From NCBI RefSeq assembly GCF_002163855.1, contig NZ_CP019332.1, positions 785,145 to 849,144 of the forward strand: DNA of 64,000 nucleotides, written 5' to 3'. Below, piece after piece: positions 4,037-17,642 of the stretch; the first letter of the stretch is position 1, and every line of letters starts with the position of its first letter. The notes below the pieces were generated by a model. The model did not search any database and was not told the origin of the DNA. It saw nothing but the letters and a program-made list of their open reading frames with translations. Origin of the DNA: Winogradskyella sp. PC-19. GTDB taxonomy: Bacteria > Bacteroidota > Bacteroidia > Flavobacteriales > Flavobacteriaceae. The translations under genes and the position numbers were made by a program.

Positions 4037-4867
4037 TTATTTTAAATAAATACCATCTTCTTTAATTTCAATTTTTCGGTCTTTGTACAGTGAACCAATA
4101 GCTTTTTTAAAACTCTTTTTACTCATTTGTACTGTATCTTTTATATCATCAGGTGCAGATTTATCATTTAATGGTAAAAACCCATTGTTATCTCCCAAAA
4201 CAGTTAAAATGGTTTGTGCATTTGGCTCTATAGCTCTATAACTTGTCTGACTCAATGAAATATCTAATTTATTTCCTGGTCTAATTTTTTTAACAATTCC
4301 CTTTAACTTATCACCAACACTTATGTCTTTAAAGATTTCGTCTTTAAAGACTAGTCCAAGATGGCGGTTATTTACAATAACATTCATACCAAGGTCGGAT
4401 GGATGAGACACTATTAAATCTACTTCTTCGTAGTGCTCGACAGTCAATTCTTTGTTATCTAAAAAACGATTAGTTTTACTTGACGCGACAAGACGTTCGG
4501 ATTCTTCATCTAAATAGCAATGCACCAAATACCAGCCTCCAGCTTTCATCTTAAATGCTTGCTCTTTAAATGGGCAAAATAATTCTTTAACTAAACCCCA
4601 ATCCAAAAAAGCACCAAACTTAGTCACTTGATTACAACGTAATAAAGCAAAATCACCTCTCTTTATATAAGGTTTGTCAGTGATGGCAACTGGTCGTTCT
4701 TCATTATCTAAATAGGCAAAAACTTCTATCTTATCACCAATTTCGAATGTCTCAGGAACATATCGATTTGGCAAAAGAATTTCATTTTCTTCATTATCAC
4801 CTAAAAAAAGTCCAGGTTCAGTATCTCTTAAGATGGTAAGTGTGTTATAATCGCCTATTTGTATCAT
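4037..4867 (-). CDS. cvfB: CvfB-type S1 RNA-binding protein
   Basis: The 276 aa protein matches the CvfB/YitL family. It has an N-terminal OB/S1-like domain (about 1-65), a second S1-like unit (about 68-140, with RCNQVTKFGAFLDWGL), a third (about 145-215, ending KLDISLSQ) and a C-terminal winged-helix segment (about 220-276, with FKKAIGSLYKDRKIEIKEDGIYL). CvfB in Staphylococcus binds RNA and affects virulence gene expression. In this phylum its role is unknown. The start is the ATG at 4867. It follows the DUF2853 gene but is separated from it by a terminator. Confidence 0.88.
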   Translation of the reverse strand: MIQIGDYNTLTILRDTEPGLFLGDNEENEILLPNRYVPETFEIGDKIEVFAYLDNEERPVAITDKPYIKRGDFALLRCNQVTKFGAFLDWGLVKELFCPFKEQAFKMKAGGWYLVHCYLDEESERLVASSKTNRFLDNKELTVEHYEEVDLIVSHPSDLGMNVIVNNRHLGLVFKDEIFKDISVGDKLKGIVKKIRPGNKLDISLSQTSYRAIEPNAQTILTVLGDNNGFLPLNDKSAPDDIKDTVQMSKKSFKKAIGSLYKDRKIEIKEDGIYLK

Positions 4868-4906
4868 ACCGCAAAGTTATTATTATTAATGTTTGTAGCT
4901 AAAAAA

Positions 4907-4938
4907 AGCGCTAATATTCTCAATGAAATATTAGCGCT
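4907..4938 (-). terminator. Rho-independent terminator after the DUF2853 gene
   Basis: A 12-bp perfect stem (AGCGCTAATATT with AATATTAGCGCT) with an 8-base loop is followed, on the minus strand, by a run of T. It ends the DUF2853 transcript before the CvfB gene. Confidence 0.8.
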
Positions 4939-4960
4939 AACTTATATAGATTATTTTATT

Positions 4961-5299
4961 CTAATAAACAGACTCTTTTTTAAAGTGCTTAGTAAGCATA
5001 TAATAAATTACAGCTCTATACTTGTTACGATTAGAACGTCCGTAAGTTTCGATAACACTATCAATAGCTTTATCTAAATCAGCGCTATCACTAAGTCCTA
5101 ATTTCTTAATTAAAAAGTTATTTTTAACTGTAGCTAACTCTTTATCGTCAGAACCTGAAACTGTAGCAGCATCTGCATTATAAATAGATGGTCCTAAACC
5201 AACAGTTACTTTTGTCAACAAGTCCATGTCTGGATTCATACCACATTTGTCTTTTAAGTCTGCAGCATATTTTGCAATTAAGTCGTCTCTTTTGCTCAT
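4961..5299 (-). CDS. DUF2853 family protein
   Basis: This is a small cytosolic protein of 112 aa, mostly helical. It carries the KYAADLKDKCG start region, a TVGLGPSIYNADAA segment, and the ending SNRNKYRAVIYYMLTKHF. The pattern matches DUF2853, whose structure is known but whose function is not. It is monocistronic, with its own promoter at 5336-5343 and a strong terminator at 4907-4938. It lies between the menD operon and the CvfB gene without obvious linkage to either. Confidence 0.85.
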   Translation of the reverse strand: MSKRDDLIAKYAADLKDKCGMNPDMDLLTKVTVGLGPSIYNADAATVSGSDDKELATVKNNFLIKKLGLSDSADLDKAIDSVIETYGRSNRNKYRAVIYYMLTKHFKKESVY

Positions 5300-9997: not shown

Positions 9998-10028
9998 ATA
10001 TTATTGCAACCAAATTGCATTAAATATT

Positions 10029-10036
10029 TATATTTG
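10029..10036 (+). promoter_or_regulatory. -7 promoter element, only four bases before a GTG start
   Basis: TATATTTG matches TAnnTTTG exactly. A TTG at 10004-10006 could be the -33 element with a 22-base spacer. The element ends four bases before the GTG at 10041, so the transcript may have almost no leader. Confidence 0.5.
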
Positions 10037-10040
10037 ACAC

Positions 10041-10343
10041 GTGAAGAAAGATATAAATAAAAGAATTATAAACCTTTTTTTTACGGTAATCCTAATGCTA
10101 CCAATGGTACTAAGTGCTCATGCCTTAGACCATATAAGCGATGATGATACCAATCCATGTGAACAATGCGATTTTTTAGCAGAGTCTTACGAGCTAGATT
10201 TTATTAGCACTACTAATAGCTTTGTAGAAATTGAGCCATGTCTTGTACCAAATTCATTTGTGTTATTCACAAGTTATCAAATCTCTAAAGAAACAATAGT
10301 TTTACCAGAATTTGTATACAACAAACCTCCTCCTAAACATTAG
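10041..10343 (+). CDS. Small secreted CxxC protein at head of TonB-receptor locus
   Basis: The 100 aa product starts with GTG and has a hydrophobic signal segment at about residues 10-26. Next comes a short acidic/His stretch HISDDDTNPCEQCDF with a CxxC pair, and the protein ends in NKPPPKH. I recall small periplasmic proteins of this build (acidic/His stretch, Cys pair, Pro-rich end) upstream of metal-related TonB receptors in Flavobacteriia, but I do not recognise a named family. The GTG sits almost at the predicted transcription start. An alternative in-frame ATG about 15 codons on would cut the signal peptide. It may bind metal; that is an inference. Confidence 0.6.
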   Translation: MKKDINKRIINLFFTVILMLPMVLSAHALDHISDDDTNPCEQCDFLAESYELDFISTTNSFVEIEPCLVPNSFVLFTSYQISKETIVLPEFVYNKPPPKH

Positions 10344-10345
10344 AG

Positions 10346-10508
10346 GAATATTCTTGACTTTTTTTTTAAAATAATATGCTATTTAATTATTTATAGCAGC
10401 ATTAATTCTAACATTTTTTTTTAAACAAATAATTTATTTTCTTTTTTGAAATTGATAGAACTCAATTTACAATAGATATATTTTATTTTTTCAAAAGAAT
10501 ATTCTTGA
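10346..10508. repeat. Paired GAATATTCTTGA direct repeats in an intergenic gap
   Basis: The 12-mer GAATATTCTTGA, containing the palindrome GAATATTC, occurs at 10346-10357 and again at 10497-10508, bracketing the gap between the small secreted protein and the ABC ATPase. A regulator-binding role for the downstream operon is possible. No such site is known to me. Confidence 0.4.
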
Positions 10509-10513
10509 TTCTA

Positions 10514-10530
10514 TTACGGGTTGTCCGTAA
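10514..10530. promoter_or_regulatory. Inverted repeat TTACGG-N5-CCGTAA upstream of the ABC operon
   Basis: A 6-bp perfect inverted repeat with 5-base spacing lies 36 bases before the ATG at 10567, where a -33 region would be expected. A near -7 element (TACATTTT) follows. It is a candidate operator for the ABC/TonB-receptor operon. Confidence 0.4.
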
Positions 10531-10566
10531 CCAATACTAATTACACAAACCTTTACATTTTTACAT

Positions 10567-11262
10567 ATGCTTGAAGCAGTAAATCTTACCAAAACTTACG
10601 GTAAGCAAAATGCGCTTGATGCGCTAAATCTGTCTGTAAAAAAAGGAGAAATCTTTTGTTTACTTGGACAAAATGGAGCTGGAAAAACAACAACAATAAA
10701 TCTATTTCTAGGTTTAATCGAAGCTACTAGTGGTGAAGCCTTAGTAAATGGAATTTCAATTAAACCTAATCAGAATAGTACAACTAAAATGATAGCATAC
10801 ATTCCTGAAGTTGTACAGCTATATGGTAATCTTTCTGGAGTTGAAAATCTTGATTTCTTTAGCAGATTAGCAGGATTTAAATATCAAGCAAATGATTTAT
10901 CTGAATATTTATTAAAAGCTGGTCTTGAAGAAGAAGTTCACCATAAAAAATTAGCGTCTTACTCCAAAGGAATGCGACAAAAAGTAGGTATAGCAATAGC
11001 ATTAAGTAAAAATGCAGATTATATTTTTATGGATGAACCAATTTCTGGTCTAGACCCAAAAGCCACTTTAGACTTTACTAAAATATGTAAAGAGCTAAGT
11101 CAACAAGGTAAAGCTATTTTTATGGCAACGCATGATATTTTTAATGCCGTAAACGTAGGTACACGAATAGGTATCATGAAAAAAGGACAATTGGTACACA
11201 CCGCAAATACCAATCAAATCAATGCGGAAGAACTTCAAAATTTATATTTAAAAACTATCTAA
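10567..11262 (+). CDS. ABC transporter ATP-binding protein
   Basis: This 231 aa ABC ATPase of the ABC-2 (CcmA/NatA-like) type has Walker A GQNGAGKT at 34-41, Walker B YIFMDEP, the D-loop SGLDP and the switch His in ATHD. The signature is YSKGMRQK, the variant seen in ABC-2 ATPases rather than LSGGQ. It is the first gene of a tight plus-strand operon with a TonB-dependent receptor and two membrane proteins (13780, 15225) that must be its permease partners. Whether it drives import or export cannot be read from sequence. The ABC-2 class is usually an exporter. Confidence 0.92.
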   Translation: MLEAVNLTKTYGKQNALDALNLSVKKGEIFCLLGQNGAGKTTTINLFLGLIEATSGEALVNGISIKPNQNSTTKMIAYIPEVVQLYGNLSGVENLDFFSRLAGFKYQANDLSEYLLKAGLEEEVHHKKLASYSKGMRQKVGIAIALSKNADYIFMDEPISGLDPKATLDFTKICKELSQQGKAIFMATHDIFNAVNVGTRIGIMKKGQLVHTANTNQINAEELQNLYLKTI

Positions 11263-11274
11263 TAAACAACTAAA

Positions 11275-13776
11275 ATGAAATTATTTAAATCATTAACAAA
11301 ACTATTAATACTTCTATTTAGTATTACAGTATTTGCTCAATCTAAAGTCACAGGAACAGTAGTTGACGAAAAAGGTATACCAATCAATACTGCTACTATT
11401 GTCCTAAAAAACTCAAATGGTAAACTAGGGGAAATCACAGATGAAGAAGGTAAGTTTACCATAACTACAACAGCCGGCACTTACAATATTGAAATAAGCT
11501 ATTTAGGATTTCAACTTTATAAATCAACTATCGATATTACCGATAATGAGACTAAGAATATTGGCACAATTACCTTATTAGAAGGCACTGAACAACTACA
11601 AGGTGTAGAAATTTTAGGTCGTGTAAGAAAAGATTACAATAGTGATTACTCTTTCTCAGCTACAAAAACATCTATAAAAAACAGAGAGTTGCCTCAGTCA
11701 GTAGCAACTGTTACCAAAGAGCTTATCGATGACCGTGTGGCTTTTCAACTACCAGAAGCTGTTAGGACAGTAAGTAACGTTGCACTTACTGGTTTATATA
11801 ATCATTACAATATCAGAGGTATTACACAAGCAGACGATGGTCAAATGCTTAATGGTATGCGTACACGTCAGTACTACTTTTTACAACCGATTACATCACA
11901 TCTAGAACGTGTAGAAGTTATTAAAGGTCCATCTTCGGTAACTTTTTCTAGTGCAGATCCTGGCGGAACAGTAAATATGGTAACTAAAAAACCATTAACT
12001 GAGAAAAGAAATTCGGTAAGCTTAACAGCAGGAAGCTTTGGTACTCTTAGAGCCACAGCAGATTTCACTGGACCTTTAAACGAATCTAAAACCTTATTAT
12101 ACCGTTTTAATGCAGCATTTCAAGAAGCAGATTCTTTTAGAGATGTTGTAAATAACAACGCCATTTTACTAGCGCCATCTATAAGTTTTGTTCCTAATGA
12201 AAACACTTCACTTAATGTTGAGATGATTTATAATGATGCTGAAGGGAACTTAGATAGAGGTCAGCCAATTTTTGGGGCTATAAATGGTGAATTTGATTTG
12301 AATAGCACGCCTATTACAAGAAATGTTGGTGCTTCTAATGACCATTACAAAAATAAGGAGGTGATTTTAATGGCTAACTTTACTCAACGATTTACTAAAA
12401 GTTTTGCGTTTAATGCGCAGTACATGAAGCAAACTTGGGATGAAGATTTGGCTGAGCACCGTGTTGATGGTACTGCTGTAGATATTGATGGCAATGTAAT
12501 ACCAACTCTCGCAAGGTTAAGATACGATAGAAGACAGCAATTTTGGGAAACTGATAATTTTAGTGCTTTCTTTACTTACGATATAGAGAAAGGTAACATT
12601 ACTAATAAATTTTTAGTAGGCTATGATGCCACACGTTGGGAAAGACAAATTGGTGCAGGTTTTCTTAGAGCCAGAAGATACTTGACAGTTAATGGCGGAC
12701 AAGCAAATTACGACCCAAGTAACCCTGGGAACTTTCAGCAAATGACAGTTGATGGTGTTACTATGCCAGTACCAGCAGTACCCCATTTTAATCTAGAAGA
12801 CCCTTTTAATGGTGCAAGAAATACAGACAATTACAATCTTGCCACATTATCAATTCCAGCTAACTTAAATACTTCTAATGGTATCTATATTCAGAATCAA
12901 TTTAAAATTGGAAAATTATCTGCTTTAGTAAACTTAAGATACGAATGGTTTAAAGACATCTTTGATTACAAGAGTAATGACGAACAAGAATTTACAACAA
13001 GTGCATTTGTACCAAGACTTGGTTTAACTTACGAAGTAAATGATAATATTAGTGCATACGCTACATATTTAGGCGGATTTCAACCACACACTAACACAGT
13101 CTCTTTATCACCAACTGCCGAAGGTTTTTTCTGGGCAGCATCACCAGGTAGATATGACCCATTAGAAAGTAGTTTAGTTGAGGTTGGTGCCAAAGGTGAA
13201 TTTTTAAATGGAAGAATTTTTGCTAATCTTGCGATATTTAATATAACACAGAAAAACATTCTTTTAGGTGATACTTACGATTTAGATACGTTAACAACGA
13301 GAGGTGAGCAACGCAGTAGAGGTTTTGAGTTTGATATTTCGGGTTACGTATCTAATAATTTTCAATTAATGGCATCATATGGATTTAATGATGCAACTAT
13401 TGAAGAAGATGCTATTGAAGAATTTATCGGAGAAAGAATTGGTGGAGCTCCAAAACATAATGCAAATTTCTGGGGTAGATATAACTTTAATTCTACATCT
13501 ACTTTTAGAGGATTAGGTGTTGGTTTGGGTGCGCAATATGTAGACGAAAGGTTTACATGGTACAATCCAACTTATTCTACTGATAGAGTTTTATTACCAG
13601 ATTATACGGTTTTTGAAGGTGCAGTATATTACAAACCAAGTGGTATAAATATGCAGTTGACTTTAAAGGTAAATAACCTATTTAATAAAACATATTGGTT
13701 AGGTGGACTTAATCCTTCTAGATTAGGACCTGGTGCACCTCGAAATGTATTACTTAACGCTACTTATAATTTCTAA
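11275..13776 (+). CDS. TonB-dependent receptor, siderophore type
   Basis: This 833 aa outer-membrane receptor has a signal peptide (1-21), then a carboxypeptidase-regulatory-like domain (about 22-105, with GTVVDEKGIPINTATIVL). The plug (about 125-240) contains LPQSVATVTKELIDDR, YNIRGI and the VEVIKGPSSV..PGGTVNMVTKKP motif typical of ferric-siderophore receptors. The barrel ends in aromatic TYNF. Such receptors import iron chelates using TonB. It is placed between the ABC ATPase and its permeases, 12 bases after the first and 3 bases before the next gene. No SusD partner is present, so a glycan role is unlikely. The ligand is unknown. Confidence 0.93.
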   Translation: MKLFKSLTKLLILLFSITVFAQSKVTGTVVDEKGIPINTATIVLKNSNGKLGEITDEEGKFTITTTAGTYNIEISYLGFQLYKSTIDITDNETKNIGTITLLEGTEQLQGVEILGRVRKDYNSDYSFSATKTSIKNRELPQSVATVTKELIDDRVAFQLPEAVRTVSNVALTGLYNHYNIRGITQADDGQMLNGMRTRQYYFLQPITSHLERVEVIKGPSSVTFSSADPGGTVNMVTKKPLTEKRNSVSLTAGSFGTLRATADFTGPLNESKTLLYRFNAAFQEADSFRDVVNNNAILLAPSISFVPNENTSLNVEMIYNDAEGNLDRGQPIFGAINGEFDLNSTPITRNVGASNDHYKNKEVILMANFTQRFTKSFAFNAQYMKQTWDEDLAEHRVDGTAVDIDGNVIPTLARLRYDRRQQFWETDNFSAFFTYDIEKGNITNKFLVGYDATRWERQIGAGFLRARRYLTVNGGQANYDPSNPGNFQQMTVDGVTMPVPAVPHFNLEDPFNGARNTDNYNLATLSIPANLNTSNGIYIQNQFKIGKLSALVNLRYEWFKDIFDYKSNDEQEFTTSAFVPRLGLTYEVNDNISAYATYLGGFQPHTNTVSLSPTAEGFFWAASPGRYDPLESSLVEVGAKGEFLNGRIFANLAIFNITQKNILLGDTYDLDTLTTRGEQRSRGFEFDISGYVSNNFQLMASYGFNDATIEEDAIEEFIGERIGGAPKHNANFWGRYNFNSTSTFRGLGVGLGAQYVDERFTWYNPTYSTDRVLLPDYTVFEGAVYYKPSGINMQLTLKVNNLFNKTYWLGGLNPSRLGPGAPRNVLLNATYNF

Positions 13777-13779
13777 AAC

Positions 13780-15228
13780 ATGAAATGGGCTAACATTCGG
13801 CTATTTGTATCACACTTTTGGCGTAATACAAAGTCACTAAAAACATTTTACATCCTTTACATCGTTTTTATATTACTAACAGCTTATGCAGCTTTTAGTG
13901 GTATACAAAACCATACAATCCAAAATAATATAAGGGAAGCACATCAAGTGGAAGCGAGACAGAGTTGGGAAGCTAATCCTGACAAGCATCCACATCGTAT
14001 GGCGCATTTTGGGACATTTGCCTTTAGAATCAGTCCTGTTCTATCGGCATTTGACTATGGTATTGAAAGCTATACAGGAAGTACGGTGTTTTTAGAAGCC
14101 CATAGACAAAATAGTGTTAATTTTTCAGAAGCTACATTTGCTTCAGGTGCCCTAAGGTTTGGCGAATTAAGCTTGGCCTTACTACTGCAGTTAGTGTTGC
14201 CTCTGATTTTATTTTTTATAGGATTTTCCAGTATATCATCAGACAGAGAAAATAATACACTAAAAATGTTATTATCTCAAGGCGCCACGTGGAAAGACAT
14301 GCTTTTTGGGAAATCTCTTGGACTATTTTTTATAGCACAACTGTTTTTTATACCCGTTTTATTAGTCGTTGTTTTTACGCTTCTTATTGTTGACAATCAA
14401 CTAGCAAGTACTTCTGATTGGTTAAGGTTATTGATTATTAGTTTAGGATATTCTATATTCTTTTTTATAGTTTCTGCATTAACTATTGTTATCTCAGCAA
14501 GAAGTCATACTTCAAAAAGCGCCTTGTTACGTCTTTTGGGTATTTGGCTACTATTTGTAGTATTGTTACCCAAATCAGCACAAGCATTAGGAAATTATTG
14601 GTTTCCTACACCAACAAAACTAGCATTTCAATCTGCTATAGAAGCAGATGTTATTAAAAGAGGTGATAGTCATAATCCTGATGACCCACATTATAATAAG
14701 TTACGAGACTCTGTTTTAACAGTTCATAAAGTTTCAGATGTTACCGATTTACCTTTTAACTATTCTGGCTTTGTAATGCGAGAAGGCGAAAAAATATCTT
14801 CGCAACTCTATAAAAAACATTATAAATATTTAGTAGCTACCTATAACAATCAGAATAATATTACTCAGCTTTCAGCTTTGGTAAATCCATTTACAGCGAT
14901 TAAACAGCTCTCCATGACAATATCTGGAACTGATTTTTCCTCATATATCGATTTTCAAGAACAAGCTGATGCCTATCGCTACAGTTTAGCACAAACCATG
15001 AATAATTTGCAGATGGAATACATTAGTTCAAAAGCTACAAGTTCCGAAGGGAAAGTTAATGTTATTGGTCATGAACATTGGGAAGAATTTGAAGATTTTA
15101 AACACCGACCTATACCTCTTGATTCTTCAATTAAAAATTCATTTTTAGCATTATTATCCATTCTATTATGGGGAATTTTAGCGTTTAGTTTAATCCTATT
15201 CACTTCAAAAAGAGCAAAAGCACTATGA
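13780..15228 (+). CDS. ABC-2 type permease, DUF3526-like
   Basis: The 482 aa membrane protein has TM1 at about 22-42, a large extracytoplasmic loop (about 43-125), four or five TMs between about 127 and 262, a second large loop (about 270-450) and a last TM near 455-475. The first loop contains HPHRMAHFGTFAF, AFDYGIESYTGSTVFLEAH and NSVNFSEA, the pattern of permeases annotated with DUF3526. The His-rich parts (HPHRMAH, HNPDDPHY, KKHYKY) suggest metal or ligand contact, by inference. It is coupled to the next permease through an ATGA overlap. Confidence 0.85.
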   Translation: MKWANIRLFVSHFWRNTKSLKTFYILYIVFILLTAYAAFSGIQNHTIQNNIREAHQVEARQSWEANPDKHPHRMAHFGTFAFRISPVLSAFDYGIESYTGSTVFLEAHRQNSVNFSEATFASGALRFGELSLALLLQLVLPLILFFIGFSSISSDRENNTLKMLLSQGATWKDMLFGKSLGLFFIAQLFFIPVLLVVVFTLLIVDNQLASTSDWLRLLIISLGYSIFFFIVSALTIVISARSHTSKSALLRLLGIWLLFVVLLPKSAQALGNYWFPTPTKLAFQSAIEADVIKRGDSHNPDDPHYNKLRDSVLTVHKVSDVTDLPFNYSGFVMREGEKISSQLYKKHYKYLVATYNNQNNITQLSALVNPFTAIKQLSMTISGTDFSSYIDFQEQADAYRYSLAQTMNNLQMEYISSKATSSEGKVNVIGHEHWEEFEDFKHRPIPLDSSIKNSFLALLSILLWGILAFSLILFTSKRAKAL

Positions 15229-16574
15229 TTAAATTATATAAGTTATTATTTCAACAATGCATTAGGTCCAAAGAAGTTTGGATGAGTTTGTCATTAATAT
15301 TTATACTCGGTATAGTAAGTATTGTTATTGGAAGCAAACATCTTGAAAGACAAAAAACTGAAATTGCAGAAGTAGAAGCGCATCAAAAGCAACATTTTGA
15401 GCGTCAGGTAAATTTACATAATGAAGATTTAGGTCTACTACTATACTATGCGAAATTTGCGCATATTAATACACTAAATCCACTAGCTGGTTTATCTATT
15501 GGGCAGTCAGATGTTAACCCAACCGTTAAAAGGATTACCATAAAAACATTTGAAGCGCAACGCTTTGATACCGACTTGATAAATGCTATGAGTCTACAAT
15601 CAGGGAATTTAGACCTTTCTTTTATTATTATTTACTTATTTCCTCTACTAGTCATTGTATTAAGTTTTAATGTCGTTTCTGAAGAAACTGAAACCGGTAC
15701 TTGGTCGTTAATAGCTGTGCAAGCAAAATCAAAATTAAGATTTATAATTTCTAAGCTTGCCATAAGATTTACGTTATTACTTGTAGTTTTATTACTACTA
15801 TTTATAGTAGCCGTTTTGGTTATGGACATTTCCTTAACTACAACTTTTATCACCATCGTGACCTTAGCAATACTTTATCTTTTATTTTGGTTTGCATTAA
15901 CTTTTTTAATCATAAGCCTTAAAAAGTCATCTGGATTCAATGCGCTTCTATTGTTATCAGGTTGGTTAGTACTTTTAATTTTACTTCCGGCTAGTATCAA
16001 TGCCTACGTTGCTTTAAAATATCCTGTTCCAGAAGCATTGACTACTACAATCGCACAACGAGATGGATATCATGTAAAATGGGATACAGATAAAAAAGCC
16101 ACGATAGAAGCATTTTACAAACATTATCCACAATTTAAAACATATGGTTATCCTACAGATGGTTTTAATTGGTTATGGTATTATGCCATGCAACAAATGG
16201 GTGACGACGAATCACAACCTCAACAAAATGCATTAGATAAAAAAATTAGATTACGTGATAAAGCGAGTAATTCAGTATCTTATGTAATCCCTAATATGCA
16301 TTTACAATTGGCATTTAACCAATTGGCAGGAACAAGTACACGTCAGCATATGGAATATTTGAATGAAACTGAAGCTTTTCATGAGGAATTACGTTTATTC
16401 TTTTATCCTAAAGTATTTAAACAAGAGCATGCTGATACTGTAAACTGGGATGATATTAAACCAAAATTTCATGAAACTAAAGTCGAAACATCAGCTTTAA
16501 AAAACATATTACCAATACTTGTAATAATATTAGTGATTTTATTTATAGCTGTACCGAAAGCGAAACGTCTTTAA
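15225..16574 (+). CDS. Second ABC-2 type permease, DUF3526-like
   Basis: This 449 aa permease has the same architecture as its upstream neighbour: TM1 (about 18-37), a His-rich loop (HLERQKTEIAEVEAHQKQHF), the family segment LAGLSIGQSDVNPTVKRIT, a TM block (about 130-255), a second soluble loop, and a last TM near 425-443. It probably pairs with the 13780 product as a heterodimer served by the 10567 ATPase. It overlaps the upstream gene by four bases and is the last gene of the operon. The next gene is convergent. Confidence 0.85.
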   Translation: MIKLYKLLFQQCIRSKEVWMSLSLIFILGIVSIVIGSKHLERQKTEIAEVEAHQKQHFERQVNLHNEDLGLLLYYAKFAHINTLNPLAGLSIGQSDVNPTVKRITIKTFEAQRFDTDLINAMSLQSGNLDLSFIIIYLFPLLVIVLSFNVVSEETETGTWSLIAVQAKSKLRFIISKLAIRFTLLLVVLLLLFIVAVLVMDISLTTTFITIVTLAILYLLFWFALTFLIISLKKSSGFNALLLLSGWLVLLILLPASINAYVALKYPVPEALTTTIAQRDGYHVKWDTDKKATIEAFYKHYPQFKTYGYPTDGFNWLWYYAMQQMGDDESQPQQNALDKKIRLRDKASNSVSYVIPNMHLQLAFNQLAGTSTRQHMEYLNETEAFHEELRLFFYPKVFKQEHADTVNWDDIKPKFHETKVETSALKNILPILVIILVILFIAVPKAKRL

Positions 16575-16595: not shown

Positions 16596-17642
16596 TTACT
16601 GAAGTAATCCAATACTAAAAATAGTTTCATCCTTATTGATAGGTGGTGTCCCAATCATGTAAAGTATGATACCATCATTTTGTGCTTGTACATCTTCTAA
16701 TTTGTTTCCAAAAAAATCTGTTATGTATCCTAATGTCTCACCTTTATTAACCATTTGCCCTGCCCGTTTTGAGCTATAAAAAATACCTGTAGATTTACTT
16801 TTTATACTGTATCGCTTAGAAATTATAGTTGTATCGCTTTTAGGGTTTATTAAAGAGGTTTCAATCATATCAAGATGATTGAATAATAAAACCATCGCAT
16901 CTACGATACGAGTAACACTATTATCATCAGTGAGACCAAGTTTACCACATTCTATATCAACAGACGGAATCTTTCTATGAAATGCTTCTTGAGAACAATA
17001 TATACTTGCCGATTTAAGTCGTTCTTCGGGTATTTTAAAAATAATAGAATAATCAAAACCCATAGCAAGTGCCATATCTCTGCCTTTTTGAGACACTTTT
17101 GGCAATGCGTCACTTTGATACCAAGCGTTATAAGCTCTTAAATCTTCAGGAGCATCTCCAGCGTGGATATCAACAAAATAATCTGATTTTGAAATCACTT
17201 CTGTTGTTATAAAATGTGCGATTCGTTCGGTTAGAGAACCTTTCGCTTTGCCAGGAAAGGAACGGTTTAAGTTTTTATCGTCCAGTGGATTTAAATATGG
17301 TGACCTTCCAAGAAAAGCAGGAACATTAGCCACCTGCACTAAAATAATTGTTCCTTTTAGTTGAATTGGATTAATTTTTTTATTCAGTTCTTGTGCAGCT
17401 AGTATTGGCGGATATTCATAACCATGTACACCAGCTGTAATACCTAAAGTTGGTCCAGGCTTTAAACCATGAAATACGGTGACAGGAATATTTACGGTAT
17501 CCGTTTTATGCGTAATAGGAATTAAAAAATGACTTTTAGTACCGCGCTTTACAGTAGTATTTTTGAAAGTAAAAGTGCTTTGAGCAATTATTTTACAACT
17601 AAAAAGCAGCAAAAATAGTATTCCGAATCGAAACAGTTTCAT
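16596..17642 (-). CDS. Exported succinylglutamate desuccinylase/aspartoacylase family protein
   Basis: This 348 aa M14-type zinc deacylase has a signal peptide (about 1-21), so it acts in the periplasm. The zinc ligands appear as HxxE in GVHGYEYPP (His73, Glu76) and His in VDIHAGDAPED. An Arg/Asn substrate segment is LDDKNLNRSFPGK, and the catalytic Glu is probably in VDIECGKLG. The C-terminal domain resembles a biotinyl-lipoyl hammerhead (GQMVNKGETLGYI). Substrates of this exported branch are not known. It has its own promoter at 17662-17669. Confidence 0.85.
   Translation of the reverse strand: MKLFRFGILFLLLFSCKIIAQSTFTFKNTTVKRGTKSHFLIPITHKTDTVNIPVTVFHGLKPGPTLGITAGVHGYEYPPILAAQELNKKINPIQLKGTIILVQVANVPAFLGRSPYLNPLDDKNLNRSFPGKAKGSLTERIAHFITTEVISKSDYFVDIHAGDAPEDLRAYNAWYQSDALPKVSQKGRDMALAMGFDYSIIFKIPEERLKSASIYCSQEAFHRKIPSVDIECGKLGLTDDNSVTRIVDAMVLLFNHLDMIETSLINPKSDTTIISKRYSIKSKSTGIFYSSKRAGQMVNKGETLGYITDFFGNKLEDVQAQNDGIILYMIGTPPINKDETIFSIGLLQ

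Follow-up and report, generated by a model that had tools for sequence, protein, structure and literature searches.

A candidate zinc acquisition operon of Winogradskyella sp. PC-19: a conserved ABC-2/DUF3526 and TonB receptor cassette behind a probable CruR/CutF-type leader

Several described systems resemble, part by part, an operon at positions 10041-16574 of a 64-kb stretch of the Winogradskyella sp. PC-19 genome (contig NZ_CP019332.1; "the window" means this whole stretch), in which a small leader open reading frame (ORF) precedes an ATP-binding cassette (ABC) ATPase, a TonB-dependent receptor and two permeases. The transporter genes have a counterpart in Caulobacter crescentus, where znuK and znuGHI (CC1517 and CC1518-1520) encode a TonB receptor, an ABC-2 ATPase and two ABC-2 permeases. 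These genes are described as repressed by Zur in zinc, with Zur binding a common promoter fragment, and the ZnuK receptor as important in zinc starvation (PMC4176598). The small ORF resembles two copper-responsive leaders. CruR of Bordetella, an upstream ORF of the DUF2946 family, heads the TonB receptor operon cruR-bfrG/crtA-bp2921 (PMC9426467, PMC12914433). Its CXXC motif is required for copper control, while its RAPP end is required for expression and arrests ribosomes (PMC9426467, PMC12992588); the two motifs lie 45 residues apart, with a tolerance of one to two residues in DUF2946, and the cruR-bfrG gap is 162 nt (PMC9426467). Copper is reported to relieve the arrest, leading to Rho-dependent termination in the gap (PMC9426467, PMC12992588), and CrtA/BfrG, the receptor behind CruR, is reported to import chelated Cu(II) (PMC12914433). 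CutF heads cutFOG in Rhodobacter capsulatus, where copper turns expression on. CutF-like proteins have been listed from many Bacteroidota, with TonB-like genes as frequent neighbours of the class (PMC9973294), and thus the occurrence of such leaders in Bacteroidota is not in itself new.

The operon in the window probably serves to acquire zinc (or a zinc chelate), under the joint control of a Zur-like repressor and a nascent-chain sensor. The parts, their conserved order, the anatomy of the leader, an operator, RNA pairing and a zinc-type gene context in relatives were all found in the analysis. The genes and the leader motifs are as follows.

10041..10343, plus strand: leader ORF, 100 amino acids, GTG start, signal peptide (by eye), HALDH, CEQC, NKPPPKH end; probable CruR/CutF-like nascent-chain sensor
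10158..10169, plus strand: CxxC (CEQC) codons; both Cys invariant in 15/15 aligned leaders
10320..10334, plus strand: NKPPP codons, arrest-like C-terminal motif, 50 residues past the CxxC (motif search, leader alignment)
10567..11262, plus strand: ABC-2 type ATPase (ORF, Pfam, NCBIfam)
11275..13776, plus strand: TonB-dependent receptor of siderophore type with CarboxypepD_reg domain (Pfam, NCBIfam, PDB sequence comparison)
13780..15228, plus strand: ABC-2 permease 1, DUF3526 domain, NosY-like fold (Pfam, fold comparison)
15225..16574, plus strand: ABC-2 permease 2, DUF3526 (Pfam)

Much of the first-pass annotation of the cassette stands. Its genes and spacings were re-read from the sequence and agree: 12 nt between ATPase and receptor, 3 nt between receptor and permease 1, and an ATGA overlap between the permeases. 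In Pfam, the ATPase matches ABC_tran (E 4e-27) and the receptor matches Plug, TonB barrel and CarboxypepD_reg, all over the cut-off. The receptor was rightly called siderophore-type, with 269.1 bits against a cut-off of 223.5 for TIGR01783 (TonB-dependent siderophore receptor). Its closest PDB sequences are CntO, FoxA, the enantio-pyochelin receptor and FhuA, with CntO, a metal-pseudopaline receptor, level with FoxA (1.1e-44 vs 1.6e-44). The two permeases were rightly called DUF3526-like: PF12040 scores 4.5e-30 and 1.4e-26 (105.6 and 94.3 bits, cut-off 25), and Pfam and NCBIfam also place both in DUF3526/ABC2_membrane_2. Their loops are "His-rich" only to a mild degree (15 His in 482 residues and 12 in 449). 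In permease 1, H70, H72, H76, H108 and H298 are invariant in an alignment of 42 rows (the window and 41 genome loci); once nine plasmid homologues are included (51 rows), H76 and H108 alone remain invariant, and H70, H72 and H298 are conserved in at least 90%. The closest fold to permease 1 is NosY of the copper-linked NosDFY. Unlike NosFY(D), the window cassette has two different permeases, each with DUF3526, and NosD, NosL and NosZ genes were not seen in it. The proposal of one operon from 10567 holds for the linkage of the cassette genes, but the start is probably the leader ORF at 10041, which precedes them with a putative promoter and operator. A consensus scan was uninformative for promoters (44 promoter-like sequences vs 39.0 expected) and for terminators (4 vs 4.4).

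The four-gene order, whose absence from orthologous loci would have counted against the first-pass annotation, is conserved far beyond chance. The record set comprises the window and 90 relatives (91 records): 80 genome loci, the best 80 of 100 relatives in a genome scan, and 10 plasmid records, fetched from the 12 with a homologue in a tblastn search with permease 1 and including two unannotated ones. L-numbers denote fetched loci or records of relatives. ATPase, receptor, permease 1 (P1) and permease 2 (P2) are contiguous on one strand in 61/91 records, window included; 57 of these are plain, 2 lie near a contig edge, and L037 and L051 have a second set behind. Other orders are ATPase-P1-P2 without a scoring adjacent receptor (10/91), receptor-ATPase-P1-P2 (4) and receptor-P1-P2-ATPase (3), and the remaining records are variants or are cut by contig ends. 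The nearest relatives are in Aquimarina and other Flavobacteriaceae (identity up to 74%). Record titles further place the cassette in Chitinophaga, Saprospiraceae, Flammeovirgaceae, Hymenobacter and Spirosoma and, on plasmids, in Proteobacteria. Among viral contigs, two stretches matched a pattern, neither encoding a relative.

Given the Caulobacter system, the earlier remark that a receptor coupled to such a transporter has no textbook counterpart was too strong. znuK/znuGHI and the window cassette both place a TonB receptor, an ABC-2 ATPase and two ABC-2 permeases side by side, although znuK seems to be divergent (from its gene numbers and the shared promoter fragment) whereas the window receptor lies inside the operon. 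The passages on the Caulobacter system mention no leader, and its operator sequence differs from that of the window (PMC4176598). Novosphingobium (L003) has its receptor gene divergent from ATPase-P1-P2, and the palindrome TGATATGTTGCATCATATCA lies in between; the Caulobacter layout seems similar, since each printed Zur site is the reverse complement of the other (PMC4176598). Among 14 control genomes, DUF3526 was found only in Caulobacter vibrioides, in genes that may be znuH and znuI.

What is the small ORF? It had been taken for a small secreted CxxC protein, which was a misreading; its motifs, their fixed spacing and an RNA stem suggest that it is probably a CruR/CutF-type regulatory leader. 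Signal peptide, LHxxxH, CxxC and NKPPP end follow in this order at fixed spacing, and 223 nt separate the leader from the ATPase gene. No Pfam or NCBIfam model matches this ORF over its cut-off, the best matches being at chance level (E 0.045 to 0.077). Related leaders were sought in stop-to-stop frames on both strands of the 91 records (1.84 Mb), the rule being a CxxC and, 30-70 residues on and among the final 15 residues, one of [RKN]xPP, RGSP or xPPP. These end motifs were fixed only after a first, stricter pass had been viewed; that pass (46/85 records, a few chance ORFs included) was replaced by the later rule. The rule returned 62 ORFs. Of these, 51 lie no more than 1000 nt ahead of a cassette gene, and they come from 49 records; a leader is present in 49/87 records with enough upstream sequence. 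Among the 51, the NWPP ORF of L040 is an artefact, read in a different frame from the true leader, and an ORF in L032 heads a second cassette, on the minus strand. The other 11 ORFs include further evident leaders in L008, L018, L034 (two) and L039, and leader-type frames in L002, L008, L010, L033 and L035 were missed by the rules or lack the CxxC. With the artefact dropped, CxxC and end motif are 43 (20 leaders), 46 (9) or 50 (15) residues apart, with six others at 40, 44, 45, 47, 51 and 51; the end motifs are NKPP(P), RGPP, KGPP, RGSP, RAPP, RDPP and RPPP.

Conservation within the leader is confined to few positions. In 15 aligned leaders of the window type, the only invariant residues are M1, H27, H31, C40, C43, Y79, P96, P97 and P98; the linker is conserved in length but not in sequence. 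Codon differences over all pairs of 13 leaders fall mostly on the third position (3472, against 2350 on the first and 1551 on the second), and the Pro codons vary synonymously among relatives. Together these two patterns indicate that selection acts on the leader peptide. Some loci depart from the usual arrangement. L020 (6533-6691) and L021 (6536-6694) have shortened leaders that have lost the spacer, and L033 (6233-6541) has an altered leader in which CxxC has become CxxY; the downstream genes were all found in each. In L018 (6338-6712) and L066 (5984-6382), the usual place of the leader immediately before the ATPase is taken by a MerC-like gene; L035 has a MerC-like gene upstream of its leader-type frame.

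The window leader shares with CruR its place as first ORF before a TonB receptor, an export signal (by eye), a CxxC, a C-terminal Pro-type arrest motif at near-fixed spacing and a long gap before the regulated gene. With CutF it shares a small exported ORF, a Cys pair, a Pro-rich end and a structured gap downstream. It is only a partial CruR/DUF2946 member. Other lineages come nearer to the CruR spacing, with RGPP, RAPP or KGPP at 43 or 46 residues, and at 45 in L004 and 47 in L009. The L009 leader also passes PF11162 (DUF2946) with 28.9 against a cut-off of 23.7; L041 scores 19.5, and L008 and L011 have no match. The setting differs as well: the window has a downstream ABC-2/DUF3526 system, not PepSY_TM, and a zinc-type rather than a copper-type context, and an uptake operon should go off with metal, unlike cutFOG.

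Pairing across species supports a predicted RNA stem that takes in the leader stop codon. Its features in the window are:

10341..10355, plus strand: 5' arm of long-range RNA stem, contains the leader stop codon (duplex test, folding)
10495..10513, plus strand: 3' arm of the stem, 54-72 nt before the ATPase start (duplex test, folding)
10514..10530, plus strand: short hairpin TTACGG-GTTGT-CCGTAA ahead of the ATPase start (alignment fold, window fold)

In 14 Aquimarina-type loci, window included, the segment around the leader stop codon can pair with a segment upstream of the ATPase start. The arms diverge between species yet remain complementary, for example AAGGAATACC/GGTATTCCTT in L017 and AAAAGTAC/GTACTTTT in L032. 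Mean duplex energy is -11.2 kcal/mol for matched and -9.0 kcal/mol for swapped arms (permutation p 0.008, or 0.012 with 11 non-redundant sequences). When 20 windows of 30 nt were scanned, the three over the arm averaged -10.3, -10.5 and -6.6, whereas the other 17 averaged no lower than -5.72, with a matched advantage never above 0.5 kcal/mol. Species kinship could inflate the permutation test; these control windows argue against that, though they are no proof. In the window, the minimum folding energy is -31.7 against -21.7 for shuffles (z -2.94; 1/200 shuffles as good). When the 14 gaps were aligned with MAFFT and folded, only the short hairpin was recovered, because the long-range arms do not align, which is why the duplex permutation test was used instead. 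GAATATTC, which occurs near 10347 and 10498, was considered as a protein operator and rejected because relatives carry other, mutually complementary sequences there, as expected of an RNA stem. A different post-leader hairpin, in six chosen Allomuricauda/Croceitalea-type loci, has compensatory change in 7/10 pairs, with a small RNAalifold covariation term (-0.13).

Just upstream of the leader lies a putative operator of a Zur-like Fur-family repressor, so named from its context. Bacteroidota promoters have the -7 consensus TAnnTTTG.

10004..10020, no strand: operator-like palindrome TTGCAACCAAATTGCAT, 11/12 consensus positions of TGCAACNNNGTTGCA (consensus scoring)
10029..10036, plus strand: TATATTTG, fits the Bacteroidota -7 promoter consensus (sequence; putative)

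Only 0.8% of 1638 random 350-nt windows score at least 11 on TGCAACNNNGTTGCA. In 35/87 records, the 350 nt before the leader or first gene contain a site with at least 10/12 positions, against 2.2% of the random windows. TGCAACNNNGTTGCA was read off some of the same loci, so this count is partly circular, and the independent test is the regulon. In 120 genomes of the A. latercula family, the exact 17-mer occurs at 22 sites in 18 genomes and the reversed pattern nowhere. A Fur-family gene (PF01475) lies beside 14 of the 22 sites, with a MerC-like gene (PF03203) on the other side in 10 of those 14, both families having been checked on representatives. One exact site precedes a gene for a ZigA-type zinc metallochaperone (536.5 bits, cut-off 600), and another, in L126, lies between a Fur-family gene and an ABC ATPase with a DUF3526-type permease; five of the loci (L125, L131, L138, L140, L142) matched no query used. 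A looser search found two overlapping matches in the A. algiphila genome, 8 nt from the start of a COG0523 GTPase gene (L100). Zinc-free replacement enzymes and COG0523 GTPases are described as common in Zur regulons (PMC6103462). In 22 Aquimarina records with the orthologous cassette, 12 have the leader only, five the operator only, one both and four neither; the window carries both. Leader and operator thus tend to substitute for each other, and two controls that do so would most simply answer the same metal. The Caulobacter-type Zur pattern TGTTA...TAACA was dropped as a candidate: of the 22/91 records in which it occurs, only L029 and L047 have it close to the control region, within the gap in L029 and ahead of the leader in L047, and the window has none there.

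Neighbouring genes in relatives support the earlier suggestion of a metal-chelate or metal-handling system, and together with the operator they narrow the metal to zinc. The 91 records contain homologues of ZigA (at least 50% identity) in 14, of MerC in 19 and of the Fur-family gene in 8, with any of the three in 30. In L042, L082, L083, L085 and L088, ZigA immediately precedes the cassette, in the same orientation. A profile of 15 leaders found 29 homologues in 20 of the 120 genomes, and the surroundings of 20 of the 29 were fetched. Six head DUF3526 cassettes (L194, L198, L202-L205). Ten head a protein of about 790-800 amino acids that starts like a TonB receptor and L208 heads a shorter one; all three of these eleven that were scanned (L190, L195, L208) have a TonB plug domain match. 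For the L190 receptor, which has two DUF4625 lipoprotein-like genes behind it, the best NCBIfam model is ZnuD (145.8 bits, cut-off 950). In L189 the leader is followed by a metal-independent carbonic anhydrase-like gene (135.8 bits, cut-off 350), DUF6702, a HupE/UreJ-like gene and ZigA (563.7, cut-off 600). The last two, L193 and L200, were not recognised as any of these types.

How might these parts work together? When zinc is scarce, the Zur-like repressor would leave the palindrome at 10004-10020, and transcription would start at the leader ORF. The leader would be translated and exported and, with no metal bound, its NKPPP end would stall the ribosome on the last codons. In the inferred switch, the ribosome halted at PPP would sit next to the 5' arm and cover the leader end and stop codon, so that the stem 10341-10355/10495-10513 could not form, and transcription or translation would continue into the ATPase, receptor and permeases. 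Metal, which is presumed to be zinc rather than copper, would bind the LHxxxH/CxxC site and release the arrest; the ribosome would leave, the stem would form and/or Rho would gain access in the 223-nt gap, and the operon would go off. The receptor would bring a zinc chelate into the periplasm, and the NosY-like ABC-2 pump with its paired DUF3526 domains would drive the inner-membrane step, for which export of the emptied chelator or its fragments is most likely and import less so.

Several observations weigh against a zinc operon of this kind. All functional statements rest on homology and context. The window leader has no match to PF11162, and its NKPPP lies 50 residues past the CxxC, not a RAPP-type motif at 45 give or take one or two; in the text of PMC12992588, NKPPP is not among the tested arrest motifs ('kppp' and 'rppp' 0 occurrences). 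The characterised relatives, CruR and CutF, answer to copper. By the rules used, 24/87 records have neither leader nor operator, partly because of the overlooked or CxxC-less leader-type frames in L002, L008, L010, L033 and L035, and the 64-kb window holds no Fur-family, MerC or ZigA homologue. The Fur-family protein scores 21.4 bits against a Zur equivalog cut-off of 167, so "Zur" rests on context; the ZigA, ZnuD and carbonic anhydrase matches are likewise all under their NCBIfam cut-offs, and the leader-headed receptor of L195 matches a heme-receptor model first and ZnuD second. The looser operator search (one mismatch, four genomes) gave mostly noise, 38 matches against 20 for the reversed control, and in a phylum-wide sample the exact 17-mer gave 12 matches in 9/148 genomes against 2, with mixed neighbours. 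In L144 the operator lies between a MerC-like and an SCO-like (copper-type) gene, by eye, and this operator is also found ahead of the DUF6660 leaders of RND/P-ATPase efflux operons.

The copper responses of CruR and CutF, the uptake of chelated Cu(II) by CrtA (PMC12914433) and the NosY-like fold would suit a copper system, in which the leader is a true copper-sensing CruR, the receptor imports a copper chelate as CrtA/BfrG does, and the Zur-like site is a second signal, or in which copper shuts down a promiscuous chelate system against copper overload. This is unlikely: in relatives the neighbouring genes encode ZigA, a regulator of the Fur family and metal-independent carbonic anhydrase-like, HupE/UreJ and ZnuD-like proteins, leader and palindrome tend to replace each other on orthologous Aquimarina operons, and upstream ORFs of copper-related genes are reported to be missing from groups such as Bacteroidota (PMC12992588). 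An ordinary ferric-siderophore uptake operon, with the ABC-2 pump recycling the siderophore, would agree with the TIGR01783 score, with the best PDB sequences and with TGAGAATGATCTCTCA upstream in L009, which resembles a Fur box. The operator and neighbours are of the zinc-starvation type, though, and CntO ties with FoxA, making iron improbable. Least probable is that the small protein is a genuine secreted metal-binding chaperone and no regulatory leader. Its apparent signal peptide, its CxxC and its place before the cassette would fit, but little beyond the leader motifs is invariant, the linker conserves length alone, an arrest-type motif stands at fixed spacing from the CxxC, the RNA stem takes in the stop codon, and relatives with the whole operon under the operator lack the leader.

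A wider proposal can be made, tentatively and with rather less than even confidence: the leader may be a zinc-sensing ribosome-arrest peptide of a family that, in Flavobacteriaceae, heads several zinc-starvation operons (carbonic anhydrase-like/HupE/ZigA, ABC-2/DUF3526 with receptor, ZnuD-like receptor), can take the place of the Zur operator on an orthologous operon and acts with a stop-codon RNA stem. The zinc reading as a whole gives the widespread, so far unassigned cassette a testable function and the Bacteroidota an outline of a zinc regulon, and it suggests that CruR-like arrest peptides may sense zinc besides copper. Searches of titles and abstract starts in open-access PMC for Bacteroidota Zur, a zinc arrest peptide, ZigA/metal-independent carbonic anhydrase, znuGHI and CutF-like/zinc found no paper naming this system, nor was one naming DUF3526 found in open-access PMC literature; "bacteroid" has 0 occurrences in the main text of a Zur-regulon review (PMC6103462).

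One further gene adjoins the cassette in the window.

16596..17642, minus strand: candidate accessory AstE/AspA-type metallo-deacylase (PF24827), signal peptide by eye (Pfam, relatives)

It is convergent to permease 2, 21 nt away. A homologue is present in 20/90 related records and is co-directional in L002, L034, L035, L036, L038, L040 and L084. A second, divergent DUF3526 ABC set lies near or adjoins the first in L022, L024, L032, L035, L037, L044, L051, L082, L083 and L088; that of L032 has its own NKPPP leader on the opposite strand. An Aureibacter plasmid (L005, 1-8069) has genes for CobN, an ExbB-like protein, DUF2149, a TonB receptor and DUF4374 upstream of its DUF3526 cassette, a metal-type neighbourhood. 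Inside the leader-headed operon of L189 are two proteins without a Pfam match (1510-2046 and 4242-5069). In L155 (771-9194) and L156 (4-8923), a DUF6660 small ORF, a Cys-rich leader ending in PP, stands with the same operator before an RND efflux pump, one more exported protein, a regulator that by eye resembles the Fur family, and a P-type ATPase.

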